A DNA stretch of 64,000 nt from a virus. The notes below the pieces were generated by a model that saw nothing but the letters and a program-made list of their open reading frames with translations, had not been told where the DNA came from and did not search any database. The translations under genes were made by a program, and so were the position numbers. This document shows positions 14,967 to 43,913 of this stretch, one piece after another (positions within the stretch are counted from its first letter, which is position 1; every line of letters starts with the position of its first letter). Location of the stretch: positions 1-64,000 of the IMG/VR virus record IMGVR_UViG_3300008740_000001; one strand, given 5' to 3'.

Positions 14967-17297
14967 ATGCGTCGATTATTACTTGAAGGCGGTGTTGCAG
15001 GCCACCTGTCACATTTGTATGACAACCGCGAATTAACTGCTAACCAAATGTTTAAGATTCTGTCTCTCGCGTCTCAAGGCGAACTAGAGGGTACAGAGAA
15101 AACTGATGGATACAATATTTATCTAGGTTTCAGAGACGGCCAAGCTCGTTGGGCGCGCAACAAAGGTGATATGCGCAGCGGTGGTCGGACTATGGAAGAA
15201 CTGATTAACCGTATATTTCAAGGTGGCGAACAAGTAAAAGACGTGTATGTACGCGCATTTAAAGGATTTGAGGACTTTGCCAACAAGTTAGGGCAACGTG
15301 TCCAAGCAAATATCTTTGGCGAAGATGGATCCATTTTCTACAACACAGAAATTCAAGGTCCGGGCGCGAACAACGTTGTTAATTACGATGCAAATGTTGT
15401 GTCGATTCATCACGGGAACCATAAGAGATATGATGCTGAAACCGATACTGTAGAAATTATCGATGCGGAAGAAAATTCTAGATATCTCGATCATGCTTTA
15501 AACCGAATTGAGCAAGAAGCTCACGAGCAGAACTTTACTGTTAAACGCACCGCCGTATTAAAGTTGCGTCGTCTTGACGATGACACCGATTTGCGTATTG
15601 CTATAGCCAAGATCGAAAAAACTGGCTTTATAGGGGATATGACCATCAACGAATACCTTGAATCTAAAATTCTCCCAAAAATTCAACAGAAGGTGCCGTA
15701 CATGGATAGTAACGTGCATCAAATGATGGTCGACTATATTCTAGATAAGCGAAATGAGGCTGGTCAAAAGACGGTCAGTATGAGATCTATTTACAAAGGC
15801 TTCCCAGTCGAGCAACGTGATGTGGTGCGGAATCTGTTAAGTACCGGCGGGACTTTAATCAAGGCTGCAATCTGGCCTATTGAAGATGCAATTCACGATT
15901 TTGCAGTAGAGCTTTTAAGGGGCCTAGAGAGCGTTTACATCCTCGATAATCACGCAGAGGTAACCAGACTCAAAGCTGAGGTGGACGCCGCTGTGAGGGC
16001 TATACAGGCCTACTCTGGGCCGGGTGCGGATGAAGCTCGTAATGTGTTGCAGCACCAGCTGAGAAAAGTCAAGCACTTGGATAATATTAACTCTGCTGTC
16101 GAGGGATTTGTGTTCCACCATGGCGGTCAGATGTATAAATTCACAGGTAACTTTGCACCAGTTAATCAAATCTTGGGGTTGTTCCGATATGGACGTGGAA
16201 ATGTTCCTGCAATCTCACGGGACAATCTTGACGCCGACGACGGTGGAGAGCTTGAAGAAGCAGAAGTTGTTTCTCACGCCACCCCAGAGCGTGTAATTGC
16301 TATCTTGCCGGGCGCTTTTAAGCCTCCGCACAAAGGCCACTTTCAGATGGCCCTACATTATGCCGAGATTGCCGATGCAGTTGCGGTGTATATTAGTAGA
16401 ATTCCCAGAGAGGGCGTGGACTTTGGAACATCGAAGGCGCTGTGGGACATTTATATACAAGCCTCTCAAAATCCAGCAGCTAGCAAAATCGCAGTACTGC
16501 CAGAGCCCTCCGAAAATGCATCCCCTGTAGGAGCAGCCTTAGAGTTCGTTGGAAACGAAAGCCAAAGCCCAAACTTGGCTCAGCCGGGTGATTATGTAAT
16601 TTTGGGCGCCAGTTCAAAACCAGATTCAAAGGGTAACCCAGATTATATGCGATTTAAAGATGCACAAAAGTATTATGCGCACGGAGTACTGGGTGGAGAT
16701 CTGGAAGATACCAAGAAATATGCCTTTAAGGTCTCCGAAGAGCCATTAAGTGCACGAGATCTTAGAGCAGCCATCAGCAGAGGGGACATTGAAATCATTA
16801 AACGCTATATTCCAGACGGAGTGCTGCGACATGAAGGTGGTTTTGAGTCGGTTCTTGATCTGTTAGATGTTACGGTCGCACCGGTGGAAACTTTAGAAGA
16901 AATGCTTATTCGGATGGTTGAAGAGCGTTTAAACGAGATCAGCGAAGCTGTCGGTGATGATAGCGCTGGATGGCCAACAGTGCCTCCTACTCGATCCAAG
17001 GGGACGCCATGTATCAAATATAGTCGACAAGGCACCCAGATGCTTTATAAAGGCGATGAGGGCTACGAGGAATGTGTGAGCGAGAAAGAATTAGAAGAAA
17101 TAAGCGCGATGGGCGGCGGTGCAGTCCAAGGCGCGATGATAAGTACCGGTACCGGCAACGGTGCATGGGATGGGGCCGCAACTAAGAAGTTTAATAAGAA
17201 GCAAAAGAAAGATCAAAAGCTCAAAGGAACAAAACTTACCAAAGAGGCGCTAATTGAAAAAGTAATGGACTATTTACTAACACAGGCGGTAAACTAA
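14967..17297 (+). CDS. ligase-like and cytidylyltransferase-like nucleotidyltransferase fusion
   Basis: 776 residues. An N-terminal domain contains E-G-T-E-K-T-D-G-Y-N-I-Y-L-G (about 38-51), which resembles the lysine motif (K-x-D-G) of nucleic acid ligases and capping enzymes, followed by G-D-M-R-S-G-G-R. A second domain from about residue 448 has A-I-L-P-G-A-F-K-P-P-H-K-G-H (HxGH-type site of NMN/cytidylyl transferases) and later E-E-P-L-S-A-R-D-L-R. The C-terminus is basic and ends in a helix like its neighbours. Both domains transfer nucleotidyl groups; the substrates are unknown. RNA or NAD metabolism is possible. Confidence 0.7.
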   Translation: MRRLLLEGGVAGHLSHLYDNRELTANQMFKILSLASQGELEGTEKTDGYNIYLGFRDGQARWARNKGDMRSGGRTMEELINRIFQGGEQVKDVYVRAFKGFEDFANKLGQRVQANIFGEDGSIFYNTEIQGPGANNVVNYDANVVSIHHGNHKRYDAETDTVEIIDAEENSRYLDHALNRIEQEAHEQNFTVKRTAVLKLRRLDDDTDLRIAIAKIEKTGFIGDMTINEYLESKILPKIQQKVPYMDSNVHQMMVDYILDKRNEAGQKTVSMRSIYKGFPVEQRDVVRNLLSTGGTLIKAAIWPIEDAIHDFAVELLRGLESVYILDNHAEVTRLKAEVDAAVRAIQAYSGPGADEARNVLQHQLRKVKHLDNINSAVEGFVFHHGGQMYKFTGNFAPVNQILGLFRYGRGNVPAISRDNLDADDGGELEEAEVVSHATPERVIAILPGAFKPPHKGHFQMALHYAEIADAVAVYISRIPREGVDFGTSKALWDIYIQASQNPAASKIAVLPEPSENASPVGAALEFVGNESQSPNLAQPGDYVILGASSKPDSKGNPDYMRFKDAQKYYAHGVLGGDLEDTKKYAFKVSEEPLSARDLRAAISRGDIEIIKRYIPDGVLRHEGGFESVLDLLDVTVAPVETLEEMLIRMVEERLNEISEAVGDDSAGWPTVPPTRSKGTPCIKYSRQGTQMLYKGDEGYEECVSEKELEEISAMGGGAVQGAMISTGTGNGAWDGAATKKFNKKQKKDQKLKGTKLTKEALIEKVMDYLLTQAVN

Positions 17298-22075: not shown

Positions 22076-22104
22076 TTGACTCACAGCGTTAAATACGTTA
22101 TATT
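22076..22104 (+). promoter_or_regulatory. sigma70-like promoter
   Basis: TTGACT (22076-22081), exactly 17 bases, TATATT (22099-22104). It is placed to transcribe tRNA-Lys and the structured RNA downstream. Confidence 0.7.
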
Positions 22105-22123: not shown

Positions 22124-22200
22124 GGGTCTATAGCTCAACAGCGTAGAGCAACGGACTTTTAATCCGTAGGTTCTGGGTTCAAGTCCCAGTAGACCCACCA
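22124..22200 (+). tRNA. tRNA-Lys (TTT)
   Basis: Acceptor GGGTCTA/TAGACCC, anticodon stem ACGGA/TCCGT with loop CTTTTAA (anticodon TTT), T loop TTCAAGT, encoded CCA. It lies 20 bases after a consensus promoter. Confidence 0.95.
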
Positions 22201-22830
22201 TCATCGATTCTTTGAAATTTTAGATAGACCCTAGTTCTCGGGTCTCAAAACCTGAATGGAAATACCGACCTTCAGGCACCGGCGAAAGCTAGTGATAGAG
22301 AAAACTTCGCTTAGGAACGGGATGTTCTTACATCCTATGGGTGCCGCCTAACTAAGAGAGGGAATGAGTTAAGGAGGGTGGTACTTCCGAAAATCATTTA
22401 GTAGTTCAACGCGTGAGCTTTCATACCACTGAAAGAATACTGCTGAGAATATCCACGGATTTGTAGGTTCATCGTGGAAACGGGATTAAGGCACATCCAA
22501 GAAAGGCTTGGGAAGGAGGAATAAACGCCTCTAGAATCTAACTGTCGGTGACAGAAGACTCTCTGATGGAATTGGAAACAAGACCATCGTCCCGAAAGGG
22601 GTCATGTGGACATCCTCCCAAGGTTTGGAAATATGACGCGCAACGGCGAGGTGAAGTGTACAGCTTACTCAAAGGAACGCAGAATGTCATGGCGATAGTA
22701 GGGCGTGCTGTTCCGTGGTCTTTGCAGATCAAGAACAGGGAGAAAGTTTGTGAACGGCGTTACTTGCCGGTGTGCTTACCTCTCACGCGAAATGCGGACA
22801 GGCTCAAAAGGCTTGAGGGTCACAAATGAG
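22201..22830 (+). ncRNA. candidate large ornate non-coding RNA (GOLLD/ROOL-like setting)
   Basis: About 630 bases follow tRNA-Lys directly and show dense paired structure. Elements include GACCC/GGGTC; CCTGAA/TTCAGG; long-range GGCACC (22276) with GGTGCC (22340); GGATG/CATCC; GTGGTA/TACCAC; CCACG/CGTGG; CCAAG/CTTGG; CTGTC/GACAG; CTGTTC/GAACAG; CGGC/GCCG; and CTCAA/TTGAG near the end. Several GNRA-like loops (GAAA) occur. The reading frames present are short and overlapping and look accidental. Size, phage origin and a tRNA neighbour match the GOLLD and ROOL RNA classes; membership is not proven. Confidence 0.6.
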
Positions 22831-22874
22831 GAACAAAGAAGTGCTAAGTGTTCCACCTTTTTAAGAGAAACAAC

Positions 22875-23114
22875 ATGCAAGAAAACTATGACAAACATTT
22901 GGTTACTACAATCGCAAGTGGACTGGTTAAAACAACTTTATGCCTTTGTAGTACCGCATTAGGATGCATGTGGTTATCAAATTGTGCTTTAGACGAAGAT
23001 TTAATTATCAGTTGCGAAGAATCTTGTAGTGGCATAGGGAGTCACATGGAATCAGTTACTAGCAGAAAATGTATATGTACAGCCCCAACCAATGACATAT
23101 GGGTTTTACCTTAA
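22875..23114 (+). CDS. small Cys-rich exported or membrane protein
   Basis: 79 residues from ATG 22875, chosen because AAGAGA lies just upstream and because the earlier ATG (22848) has none. A hydrophobic segment (about 12-34) with several Cys is followed by a Cys-rich, mostly polar part (C-E-E-S-C-S-G). It may be an exported disulfide protein or a lipoprotein. No family was recognised. Confidence 0.5.
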   Translation: MQENYDKHLVTTIASGLVKTTLCLCSTALGCMWLSNCALDEDLIISCEESCSGIGSHMESVTSRKCICTAPTNDIWVLP

Positions 23115-23123
23115 TGAACTTAT

Positions 23124-23218
23124 GGGGCTGTAGCCAAGTGGTTAAGGCAGCCGGCTTATATCCGGTTTAGCGTCTGATAAACGCGAGATCGTGGGTTCGA
23201 ACCCCACCAGCCCTACCA
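23124..23218 (+). tRNA. class II tRNA with UAU anticodon
   Basis: Acceptor GGGGCTG/CAGCCCT, D stem GCC/GGC, anticodon arm GCCGG-CTTATAT-CCGGT (anticodon TAT, codon AUA), T arm GTGGG-TTCGAAC-CCCAC, discriminator A, encoded CCA. The variable region is about 24 bases and contains a GCGT/ACGC hairpin, as in Leu, Ser or Tyr tRNAs. By anticodon it would be Ile, but bacterial Ile tRNAs have short variable loops, so the amino acid it carries is uncertain. Confidence 0.85.
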
Positions 23219-23237: not shown

Positions 23238-24056
23238 ATGACAGTTAAAAACATTATATTATTTGATATGGACGGTACTCTTACCGAGCCTAGACAGATT
23301 ATTGATCAGAATATGATTGATACTCTTGCTCAAGTCACTCGCAGTGGCCACGACGTGGGCATTGTTACTGGCAGTCCGATGAATTATATGGAAGAACAAA
23401 TAGGCCCACTCTTAAGTGCGCAGTATAGTGAGATCGATAGATACCACCTTCTTCCATGTAACGGTATAGAATATACCTTTTGGGAAAATGGGATTTCAAA
23501 CGCCACAGTTGGTAATACTATGGCAGAAGAATTGGGCACTTCAAACTTCCAGAATTTAATGGCGGCTCTTGTCCACCTTCAAGCAGAAGTATCTAAAACT
23601 ATGTTGGATCGCGGCCTCTCCTTAACAGGAAATTTCATTCAGTATAGGGGTGGCCTGATTAATTGGTGCCCCATCGGCCGAAACGCAACCCAACCCCAGC
23701 GCGCCGCGTTTGTAAACTTTGACCAAACGACAAACTTTCGAAATGAATATTGTCGCTTGATCAAGAAGTGGCTTAGCTGGGCCGGCTTGGAAGATAAAAT
23801 GACAGTTGTTAAGGGTGGATCCACCTCTTTTGACATATATCCAGCCGGCTGGGACAAAACTTACGCTCTGACATGGTTCGGAGATTACGAATGTTGGTTC
23901 GTTGGTGATAAATGCCACCCCGGCGGCAACGATCAACAAATTTATGAGCTTTTACAGAAGAACGGAAAAGCTTTTGAGACCACGGGACCTAATCAAACTA
24001 TTGAAATTATTGACAATATCTTGAACACCCTAGGCCCCGATAGCTCAGCAGGATAG
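23238..24056 (+). CDS. phosphomannomutase-like HAD enzyme
   Basis: 272 residues. Motif I F-D-M-D-G-T-L-T-E-P-R (about 9-19) and the later G-S-T-S-F-D-I-Y-P-A-G-W-D-K (about 195-208) and F-V-G-D-K motifs match the alpha-phosphomannomutase type of HAD fold that is usual in eukaryotes and some bacteria. It would convert mannose-6-phosphate to mannose-1-phosphate, a precursor of GDP-mannose, which links it to the glycan locus. The last eight codons and the stop lie inside the following tRNA-Arg gene. Confidence 0.8.
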   Translation: MTVKNIILFDMDGTLTEPRQIIDQNMIDTLAQVTRSGHDVGIVTGSPMNYMEEQIGPLLSAQYSEIDRYHLLPCNGIEYTFWENGISNATVGNTMAEELGTSNFQNLMAALVHLQAEVSKTMLDRGLSLTGNFIQYRGGLINWCPIGRNATQPQRAAFVNFDQTTNFRNEYCRLIKKWLSWAGLEDKMTVVKGGSTSFDIYPAGWDKTYALTWFGDYECWFVGDKCHPGGNDQQIYELLQKNGKAFETTGPNQTIEIIDNILNTLGPDSSAG

Positions 24057-26965: not shown

Positions 26966-28312
26966 ATGAAAAAGAAAAATTATATTATAGACACTAGTGT
27001 CTTTTTAACAAATGCCGAAGCAATTTTTGACTTTGGACGTAACGACATCGTTATACCACTTAAAGTTTTAGAAGAAGTGGATAAACACAAAAAACGTCAA
27101 GATGGCGTAGGTGCCCAAGCAAGGAAATTTATCAGAATTCTAGATGGCCTCCGCGAAAAGGGGTCGCTCCATTCTGGTGTACGCATCCAGAAAGGGCTGG
27201 GCTTGGCGTGCACAAGAAGTATTAAGGATACAGATCTCAGTTTATTGCCAAGAGACCTCAATTCTAAAATACCGGATCATATTATAATTGCTACCGCACT
27301 GATGGTCGCGAAAGAGGATCCAACAAGAAAGACAATAATGGTTTCCCGCGACATTAATCTTCGGGTTATCTGTGACGCCGTTGGTCTGGATGCACAAGAC
27401 TATATTGCTACCAAAGCGGTCGAAAGCTTGGAAAAGCTGTATACCGGCTTTGATACTTACTTGGTTGATGATCAAACAATTGATCAGTTTTATGCTGGTG
27501 ATAATGTGTTTGTTGACGATGAGGATCTTAATGGCGGCAAATTTTATCCAAACCAGTATTTGATGTTAGTTTCAAATGCAAATGAGAAAAAGACAGCTTT
27601 AGCCAAATACCAAAGTCCCCAAGGGCCATTAAAAAAGCTAGTTCATGATCATTTGCCCACATTTGGCATCCGATCCAGAAACAAAGAACAGGCCTTTGCA
27701 ATTGATCTGTTATTAAATCCAGAGGTAGAGGTTGTTACGCTGATTGGTAAAGCCGGCTCAGGGAAGACGCTTTGTGCCCTTGCTGCAGGCTTAGAACAGG
27801 TTATGGGGCACAAGAATTCAAAAGAAGACTCATTGTATACGAGAATGGTTGTCTCTCGTCCAATTATGCCTATGGGCCGCGACATCGGCTTCCTGCCGGG
27901 CTCAATGGAGGAGAAGATGCATCCATGGCTCATGCCTATCCAAGATAACCTACAACTTTTGATGGGTAACGACAAAGTAATGTTAGAACAATACATGGAA
28001 AAGGGAAAAATAGAGATTGAGGCATTAACTTATATTAGGGGACGTTCAATTTCAAAAGCCTTCATAATTATTGATGAGGCGCAGAACTTGACTGCGCACG
28101 AAATTAAAACCATCATTACGCGTGCTGGTGAGGGCACGAAGATCGTCTTGACTGGGGATATAGAACAGATCGACAACGCTTATACCGATGAGACCTCAAA
28201 CGGTCTAGCTTATGCTATCGAGAAATTTAAGCACTATGATTTATCGGGACATATCACCTTGCGAAAAGGAGAGCGCTCTAAAGTTGCCACACTTGCTGCT
28301 AAAATACTATAA
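26966..28312 (+). CDS. phoH: PIN-PhoH ATPase
   Basis: 448 residues. An N-terminal PIN nuclease domain (I-I-D-T-S-V-F at 7-13; V-S-R-D-I-N-L-R at 127-134) is joined to a PhoH ATPase domain with Walker A G-K-A-G-S-G-K-T (261-268) and Walker B I-I-I-D-E-A-Q-N (367-374), plus S-R-P-I-M-P and T-G-D-I-E-Q motifs. This PhoH2 arrangement is linked to RNA unwinding and cleavage in bacteria. PhoH genes are very common in marine phages, but their role there is still unclear. Confidence 0.9.
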   Translation: MKKKNYIIDTSVFLTNAEAIFDFGRNDIVIPLKVLEEVDKHKKRQDGVGAQARKFIRILDGLREKGSLHSGVRIQKGLGLACTRSIKDTDLSLLPRDLNSKIPDHIIIATALMVAKEDPTRKTIMVSRDINLRVICDAVGLDAQDYIATKAVESLEKLYTGFDTYLVDDQTIDQFYAGDNVFVDDEDLNGGKFYPNQYLMLVSNANEKKTALAKYQSPQGPLKKLVHDHLPTFGIRSRNKEQAFAIDLLLNPEVEVVTLIGKAGSGKTLCALAAGLEQVMGHKNSKEDSLYTRMVVSRPIMPMGRDIGFLPGSMEEKMHPWLMPIQDNLQLLMGNDKVMLEQYMEKGKIEIEALTYIRGRSISKAFIIIDEAQNLTAHEIKTIITRAGEGTKIVLTGDIEQIDNAYTDETSNGLAYAIEKFKHYDLSGHITLRKGERSKVATLAAKIL

Positions 28313-42026: not shown

Positions 42027-42732
42027 CATGCATTATCATCAAGAATTGATTGAGAAGCTGGTTCGCGCCACTTCTGCAAAAGTTGTATTAGAACTTGGCG
42101 TCCGTGCCATCGTTTCCCACCCGCGCAAAGGCACCTCGACATTCTTTTTCTGGAAATCATTGGCTCCAGAAGAGGGAAAACTTTATTCAGTTGATCTGAA
42201 AAACCCGGCAAGTCATAATCATTCAGAAGAATTCCTACTACGCGAATTACGAAGTTCAGGTAGATGGGAGTTTATCCAAGGAAATACCATGAATGTGTTC
42301 GAGGACATAGAGGCTCGCTTCCGGAAAGAGAATATAAGTGTGGACATTCTTTTCATCGACACGGACAAAGAAGGTGACTTAACAAAATATGAATTGGAAA
42401 ACTATTCTAAGCTGCTGGGGCCCAAAGGCATTATCATGATGCACGATACAGGGTGGGTACCCAGCAAGAGGGTGCATGAACTAGCCAGAGCAAACTCAGG
42501 CTGGCCGGCCCATGATTCGGCGGTTCAAGATTTCTTGCAGCAGACAGATTTTAAGATGAAAGCACAACTCGGAAGTTACAATATGGTCGTACTTTATAGA
42601 GATGTTGCCGATCTATGCGGAGTGAAGATTGATAATGATCTCCCGGTCGACGAAAATAGGGCGCCCTATGAAGACTCAAAAGTTGCACTACGGCGCCGCA
42701 AGTTTAACGAAATTTGGAGTAAATACGAATGA
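42010..42732 (+). CDS. class I SAM methyltransferase
   Basis: 240 residues. V-V-L-E-L-G-V-R (about 25-32) followed by G-K-L-Y-S-V-D-L (about 56-63) and I-L-F-I-D-T-D-K-E (about 114-122), with M-M-H-D-T-G-W, follow the Methyltransf_24/cephalosporin-hydroxylase-like pattern. It probably methylates a sugar hydroxyl. It lies directly upstream of the RuBisCO-like gene with a four-base overlap. Confidence 0.75.
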   Translation: MVHASDMHYHQELIEKLVRATSAKVVLELGVRAIVSHPRKGTSTFFFWKSLAPEEGKLYSVDLKNPASHNHSEEFLLRELRSSGRWEFIQGNTMNVFEDIEARFRKENISVDILFIDTDKEGDLTKYELENYSKLLGPKGIIMMHDTGWVPSKRVHELARANSGWPAHDSAVQDFLQQTDFKMKAQLGSYNMVVLYRDVADLCGVKIDNDLPVDENRAPYEDSKVALRRRKFNEIWSKYE

Positions 42733-43913
42733 AAATTTTTAGAGAAAGTCTCGATAGCGAGAAGTATATTATGGTCGAATACTATTTAGAGTCCAAGACG
42801 ACACTAAGAGATGCCGCATGGAGCTTGGCCATTGGACAAAGTGTAGGTAATCCCAATGTAAGAAACCAGTGGGAGACCGATGAACTTTTTGAAAACCACG
42901 CATGTATGGTGCTCGGTGATGAAGAGTGGCTAGCATCTTCAAATTCTGGACATGTCGCCATTGGTTTTCCAGTCGACAATATCGATTTGTCAACTGATGG
43001 GATTTCTCACCTGTTATGTCAGATTATGGGAGGCCAGTTAGATATTGATATTGTTTTAAAATGTCATGTGCTGAATATTGAATTTCCCCAAGCGGCTTTA
43101 CAACATTTTCGTGGGCCAAAATATGGAATCTCTGGTATTCGAAAGTTTACAAAGGTGTATGATAAACCGCTTTTGGGCGGAATCGTTAAGCCCAAGATTG
43201 GCATTAGTCCAGAAGTGCTGTTGGAAATGGTCAAGGAAATGGTTGAAGGCGGTGTAAACTTTATTAAAGAAGACGAGATTATGTCTAACCCGCATTTCTG
43301 CACAATCGAAGATCGTGTCCCGAGAATAATGGAATATCTGAAAAACAAGAATGTAATTTATTCGGTTTGCATTAATTCTGATGCTCCGTACTTGTTAGAC
43401 AGAGTTCGACAAGTTCACTCTTTGGGCGGAAACTCTGTACATGTTAACTTCTGGAGCGGCTTAGGATCTTATAAGGCGATTAGAGATCTGGACTTACCAT
43501 TGTTTATTCATTTTCAGAAAAGCGGCGACAAGATCTTGACGAACAAAAGTCACGACTATCACATTGACTGGAGAGTCGTATGTGATCTGGCCGGCCTTAT
43601 GGGTGTTGATTTCATCCATGCTGGCATGTGGGGCGGCTATATGAGTGACAATGAGAAAGAACTCAAAGCAGTTGTGTCCACGCTACATAACCACGGAGTG
43701 GTGCCTGCATTAAGCTGCGGCATGCATCCGGGCTTGGTACAAGCCATCAACAGCCGCTTTGGGGTAGACTACATGGCGAACGTAGGAGGAGCCATCCACG
43801 GCCATCCTAGTGGCTCTCTTGGTGGCGCCCGAGCCATGCGCCAGTCAATTGATCACGACCACGGTTTAGAATATGAGCTAGCTATAGACAAGTGGGGTCT
43901 GGTTGATGGCTAG
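42729..43913 (+). CDS. RuBisCO-like protein (form IV-like)
   Basis: 394 residues. Both RuBisCO large-chain domains align by eye. K-P-K at 154-156 (Lys175/Lys177 of the plant enzyme), F-I-K-E-D-E at 178-183 (Lys201, Asp203, Glu204: the carbamate and Mg site), His261, His297, Ser329 and G-G-x-x-x-G-H-P at 353-360 are kept. Asn123 is replaced by Gly102, the Arg295/His298 positions are not kept and loop-6 Lys334 is Tyr304. This rules out ordinary CO2 fixation. Form IV proteins act as enolases, isomerases or decarboxylases on sugar phosphates. It lies in the glycan locus between methyltransferase and sulfotransferase genes. Confidence 0.9.
   Translation: MKIFRESLDSEKYIMVEYYLESKTTLRDAAWSLAIGQSVGNPNVRNQWETDELFENHACMVLGDEEWLASSNSGHVAIGFPVDNIDLSTDGISHLLCQIMGGQLDIDIVLKCHVLNIEFPQAALQHFRGPKYGISGIRKFTKVYDKPLLGGIVKPKIGISPEVLLEMVKEMVEGGVNFIKEDEIMSNPHFCTIEDRVPRIMEYLKNKNVIYSVCINSDAPYLLDRVRQVHSLGGNSVHVNFWSGLGSYKAIRDLDLPLFIHFQKSGDKILTNKSHDYHIDWRVVCDLAGLMGVDFIHAGMWGGYMSDNEKELKAVVSTLHNHGVVPALSCGMHPGLVQAINSRFGVDYMANVGGAIHGHPSGSLGGARAMRQSIDHDHGLEYELAIDKWGLVDG

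Follow-up and report, generated by a model that had tools for sequence, protein, structure and literature searches.

Two classes of large ornate RNA encoded by phages, ROOL and GOLLD, are known to build cages, that of ROOL being octameric and that of GOLLD a 14-mer. Both are RNA-only cages formed through kissing loops; the RNAs contain variable linkers and are encoded near phage tRNAs (PMC12286853). The ROOL RNA env-120 is 659 nt in length with multiple pseudoknots, and ROOL is found in both phages and prophages, in many cases close to tRNA islands (PMC12286853). An abundant ncRNA of phage ICP1, encoded between gp139 and gp140, ~800 nt in length and without ORFs, was likened by its authors to both GOLLD and ROOL (PMC7567579). 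The RNA described here is located in a giant phage genome, and its likeness to ROOL and GOLLD is one of kind (size, pseudoknots, a variable linker and phage tRNA regions), not of membership; the family is considered new, as it matches no Rfam 15 family and no description of it was found in the open-licence papers searched.

The window, the whole stretch of 64,000 nucleotides that was analysed, is part of a virus record of 203,859 bases. On its plus strand, a tRNA-Lys(ttt) gene with encoded CCA (22124-22200) precedes a structured noncoding RNA (22208-22862) of ~650 nt; among copies, its size ranges from 636 to 700 nt. A sequence-only reading of this DNA had proposed a large ornate RNA at 22201-22830, separated by a tRNA from a consensus promoter 120 bases upstream. 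The RNA and the intervening tRNA-Lys were confirmed, but the limits were not; the molecule extends from a boxA-like element at 22208 to a U-rich tail that follows a 3' hairpin (22830-22862). A sigma70-type promoter sequence, TTGACT-17-TATATT (22076-22104, plus strand; 10/12 matches), does exist ~97-125 bases before 22201, but such a bare match is at chance level (two promoter-type matches observed vs 2.1 expected from shuffles). With the copy designated L006, TTGACA-17-TACATT is found immediately upstream of the RNA. Given that the spacer between the tRNA and the boxA-like element is 7 bases, tRNA-Lys and the RNA are presumably co-transcribed; seven of the 19 full-length copies have a tRNA on the same strand, no more than ~60 nt upstream, the rest having none nearby. 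The 670 bases following tRNA-Lys fold at -205 kcal/mol, compared to -190 +/- 5.6 for shuffles (z -2.7), and this single-sequence energy alone is only moderate evidence for a structured RNA. Elsewhere on the same strand of the window are a phage tmRNA (19518-19938; tag ANNNYYFEESRLAA) with a tRNA-Gly close behind, the tmRNA being present also in several related phages, and a gene for a 394-aa protein (42729-43913) with a RuBisCO large-chain catalytic domain (PF00016, E 2.9e-33), neighboured by glycosyltransferase and NeuB genes.

BLAST searches against isolated phages returned no match beyond the tRNA. The 1530 phage records obtained were largely driven by the tRNA, since a query lacking it yielded just two chance-level records, and only chance-level matches were found among the isolated phages and plasmids searched. 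Relatives were therefore gathered through the PhoH gene at 26966. One contig fetched in this manner, L006, contains a diverged full-length copy directly upstream of PhoH and without a tRNA, and its conserved hairpin CTGTTC...GAACAG served as a search pattern for viral contigs. Of the 30 stretches returned, ~21 were recognized as true copies by nhmmer and by local alignments with shuffled sequence as the control, and the others were unrelated; further patterns yielded L089, L090, L092, L093, and L115. With duplicates left out, the family comprises 24 distinct homologues besides the window copy, thus 25 members, plus one probable distant relative, and the member contigs are of phage, up to 316,664 bases in length. 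The family is probably larger than counted because the scans demand exact matches to short patterns. The RNA was not found in the possibly incomplete contigs L002 and L003, which encode the closest PhoH relatives (78 and 77%), the protein at 23238-24056 fetched no relatives when used as bait, and L094-L101 did not match the family. Several candidates were rejected: the region in L084 is coding and its match was attributed to chance, as were the weak matches of L083, L085, L087, and L088, which are confined to the fetching pattern. A match of G028 to R1, a model of the family's 3' domain, falls inside a methyltransferase-like ORF and was likewise ascribed to chance; as it reached E 0.002, R1 values near that level are unsafe.

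The candidate distant relative is encoded on the minus strand at L102:1255-1980, on a contig (128.5-kb) shared with L086. It comprises ~700 ORF-poor bases with a fold z of -9.8 and contains the GTCCCGAAAGGG core, the pattern that fetched it. Its 3' domain matches R1 with E 5.1e-5, a match that is independent of that pattern. Kinship is graded as probable, not certain, because the chance match to R1 in coding DNA had attained E 0.002. L086 gave no meaningful match to the GOLLD model.

The evidence for the RNA itself is derived from covariation. An alignment of 22 sequences was analyzed with RNAalifold, which predicted 135 pairs, 93 of them with compensatory changes, and a search for covarying stacks outside of this nested structure revealed six pseudoknots or kissing helices. 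The combined structure has 159 pairs in 30 helices, with 97.8% of cells paired. Two-sided changes were observed at 106 pairs, compared to 64 with shuffled and 26-40 with slid alignments, and the covariation score was 0.488 vs 0.226 (shuffled) and ~0.1 (slid), the slid control being biased in favour of the structure, which was derived from the same 22 sequences. Not included in this scoring are the stems of P1 and of the 3' hairpin, where some rows are off by a single column; these stems were assessed by eye or script. With so many two-sided changes and agreement across all 30 helices, a structured RNA is hardly in doubt. The dense folding and GNRA-type loops that the sequence-only reading had noted were thus borne out, the former decisively by the covariation among the 22 homologues and the latter by GAAA loops at 22284-22287, 22575-22578, and 22594-22597. 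That the window encodes a conserved structured noncoding RNA is close to certain, and the aligned sequences indicate a stand-alone RNA whose family has ~30 conserved helices.

The 5' part of the plus-strand molecule begins with hairpin P1 (22226-22245; stem AGACCC/GGGTCT assigned by eye), which was preferred over RNAalifold pairs 65-67/334-336. Its loop, UUCUC (22235-22239), forms a pseudoknot with GAGAA (22298-22302; helix 1). A hairpin at 22321-22334 contributes the loop UCUU (22326-22329) to a second pseudoknot with AAGA (22354-22357), the element as a whole spanning 22321-22358 (helices 5 and 6). Kissing loops pair GUGGUA (22378-22383) with UACCAC (22424-22429; helix 9), and further pseudoknots join UAGGUUC (22464-22470) to GAAUCUA (22534-22540; helix 14) and CUUGGGA (22507-22513) to UCCCAAG (22616-22622; helix 15). 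The linker at ~22485-22506 varies in length among members and contains CCAAG (22497-22501), an alternative partner of CUUGGGA; as either pairing is feasible in most members, the element is a possible switch, and CUUGGGA, paired to the linker or to its distant partner, might open or close an RNA particle. Towards the 3' end are a conserved GNRA hairpin, CCC-GAAA-GGG (22591-22600; helix 20), a self-complementary loop hexamer UGUACA (22657-22662), and the hairpin conserved most, CTGTTC...GAACAG (22706-22740; helix 25), which provided the family search pattern. Eighteen sequences have UGUACA at this position, L059 and L089 have UAGCUA instead, and no palindrome is present in L006 and L062; the hexamer is a candidate contact between two copies in a dimer. 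UAGCUA occurs also in a hairpin loop of L086. A hairpin module of the 3' domain, GTGAACNGNNTTACNNNCNGGTGT, was found in rumen phage contigs as well (L104:1324-1347, L105:1471-1494, and L106:6099-6122), within a sub-threshold group I intron match in the case of L104; this is possibly a shared tertiary module or chance.

The molecule closes with a hairpin, GGAACA/UGUUCC, followed by ACCUUUUU (22830-22862). Its stem changes among members and its loop is conserved, with AAGUGC (22839-22844) pairing back into the 3' domain at GUGCUU (22772-22777; pseudoknot, helix 28). A scan for consensus terminators did not pick up this hairpin, which from its sequence probably marks the 3' end of the RNA or a terminator. 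The first start codon of an 88-aa ORF (22848-23114, plus strand) lies within it; this ORF, flanked by the RNA and the following tRNA, has no Pfam match. That tRNA (23124-23218, plus strand; called as Ile(tat)) is 95 nt in length and has a long variable arm, unusual for tRNA-Ile.

At the 5' end of the RNA, the boxA-like element TTCTTTGAAATT (22208-22219, plus strand) occupies a fixed place in the alignment. TCTTTNANA is kept at one aligned position in all members having a 5' end, and TTCTTTGAAA / GTTCTTTAACA is all that is conserved before the first hairpin. A published survey, which states non-coding RNAs to be outside of its consideration, gives GYTCTTTAANA as the boxA consensus of the gamma-proteobacteria (PMC5725501). 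L070, L071, L072, L078, and L090 carry this consensus exactly; the window copy, ATTCTTTGAAA, departs from it. The frequency of the 9-mer within the window is at chance level, and so it is the constancy of its position across diverged copies that makes the case for boxA. The element is likely to be functional, and the long untranslated transcript would accordingly appear to use Nus antitermination in the style of rRNA. The locus would then resemble the leader or spacer of a bacterial rRNA operon, with a boxA-like element, a tRNA on what is presumably a shared transcript, and a long untranslated RNA; however, the product here is phage-borne and not rRNA, and its boxA is recognized by sequence only. 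The ROOL copy on plasmid pMP118 has no boxA nearby, and hence boxA does not characterize such RNAs in general.

The sequence-only reading had suggested GOLLD or ROOL as the class and scans with their Rfam models as a check. It was right that the RNA is large, ornate, phage-encoded and tRNA-adjacent, but neither model gave a meaningful match in the 20 RNA-carrying records. With ROOL (RF03087), none of the 20 records matched at E<=10; a positive control, run for this model only, detected the known ROOL on pMP118 with 130 bits. With GOLLD (RF02032), there was nothing above the cut-off, and three matches with E 5-9 were chance-like and elsewhere in the records. A cmscan of two copies at E<=10 identified nothing meaningful in Rfam. 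The earlier reading would have been undercut by an Rfam blank together with missing covariation, or by translation of an overlapping frame; the blank was indeed obtained, but with very strong covariation and no support for translation, the structured RNA is upheld, whereas its assignment to these classes is rejected. The RNA nonetheless has the features of the large ornate phage RNAs, being long, noncoding and phage-encoded, with elaborate covarying structure and pseudoknots and, in the seven copies noted above, a tRNA close upstream. It shares with ROOL a length of ~650 nt, multiple pseudoknots, a variable linker and a phage tRNA setting, and differs in its lack of a covariance model match and in its boxA-like 5' element. 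With GOLLD, it shares the nature of a large phage RNA near tRNAs and the presence of kissing loops, some of which self-interact in GOLLD; provided that L086 is a relative, conservation also seems greater in the 3' part than in the 5' part, as in GOLLD. However, it is ~650 nt long as opposed to 800+ nt for GOLLD. The ICP1 ncRNA is also a long phage transcript without ORFs, but ICP1 has no tRNAs and its RNA, having no match to R1, was rejected as a relative.

The distribution of the RNA suggests that it moves between phages independently of the remaining genome, as similarities of RNA and PhoH conflict. Among carriers, the PhoH proteins most similar to that of the window are encoded by L006 and L059 (65 and 62%), yet the RNAs of these two are only 56 and 59% identical to the window copy, while L070 and L076, with PhoH at 41 and 44%, have RNAs at 79 and 78%. 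Transfer is put forward as a suggestion because PhoH is one gene and the protein at 14967-17297, used as a second kinship marker, was uninformative.

Taken together, the best explanation, which we hold to be somewhat more probable than its negation, is a structural and probably self-assembling phage RNA made by means of a host promoter and boxA antitermination. In the window phage, a host-type promoter would direct the synthesis of tRNA-Lys and the RNA as one transcript, and, as happens in rRNA operons, the boxA-like element would load the host's antitermination complex of NusB-S10. RNA polymerase could then finish the long untranslated RNA by escaping Rho termination, and cleavage at the tRNA 3' end would release the 5' end of the RNA. 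The RNA would fold into a compact particle with a structural, probably self-associating role, working like the ROOL and GOLLD cages though it is neither, with the palindromic and kissing loops as candidate contacts. Self-assembly is favoured because of this analogy and because the self-complementary loop exists in two sequence versions; against it, the kissing helices can form inside one molecule, and two members lack the palindromic loop. As a whole, structural self-assembly is the most likely reading at about even chances, and formation of a homo-oligomer in particular falls slightly short of that. That the family constitutes a third, unrelated class of symmetric RNA-only particle, with borrowed rRNA antitermination and self-complementary loops, carried as a cassette between unrelated giant phages, is a speculative and rather doubtful extension.

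The most serious competitor is a monomeric RNA that, instead of forming a cage, serves as a decoy or regulator by binding a host complex (the ribosome, RNA polymerase or Nus factors). Several long loops are strongly conserved across the alignment, the 5' boxA-like element could itself titrate NusB-S10, and GOLLD was pulled down with ribosomes according to a report cited in PMC12286853; however, a NusB decoy would need neither 30 covarying helices nor six pseudoknots, and we regard this reading as quite possible, if less probable. A ribozyme or selfish element, such as an intron derivative spreading among phages beside tRNA genes, would fit the sporadic distribution, the discordance of RNA and PhoH, and the presence of hairpin GUGAACNGNNUUACNNNCNGGUGU in rumen phage contigs, once within a sub-threshold group I intron match. 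It is nevertheless improbable: no Rfam model of a group I or II intron matched the copies scanned, the RNA is bounded by 5' and 3' signals of its own and interrupts no gene, and there is no homing endonuclease among the neighbouring ORFs checked. Still more improbable is a long cis-regulatory leader of ORF 22848-23114, which is directly downstream, as the downstream genes differ by member (PhoH in L006, others elsewhere) and the RNA ends in a 3' hairpin and far exceeds known leaders in size. A protein-coding region with overlooked frames, suggested by frames of 93 and 85 aa overlapping the 3' half, is refuted on present evidence and scarcely credible, given the covariation, the lack of a Pfam match for any overlapping frame, and stop-free stretches that vary in frame and length among copies, with none open at matching places.

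Large ornate phage RNAs remain puzzling, with two classes forming cages of unknown purpose. A class without detectable kinship to them, for which a full covariation model and ~25 variants are at hand, provides a fresh test of the generality of cage building. The boxA-like element would provide a first mechanistic entry into the synthesis of such an RNA, tying it to the Nus factors, and the pseudoknots and palindromic loop offer point mutations that are directly testable.
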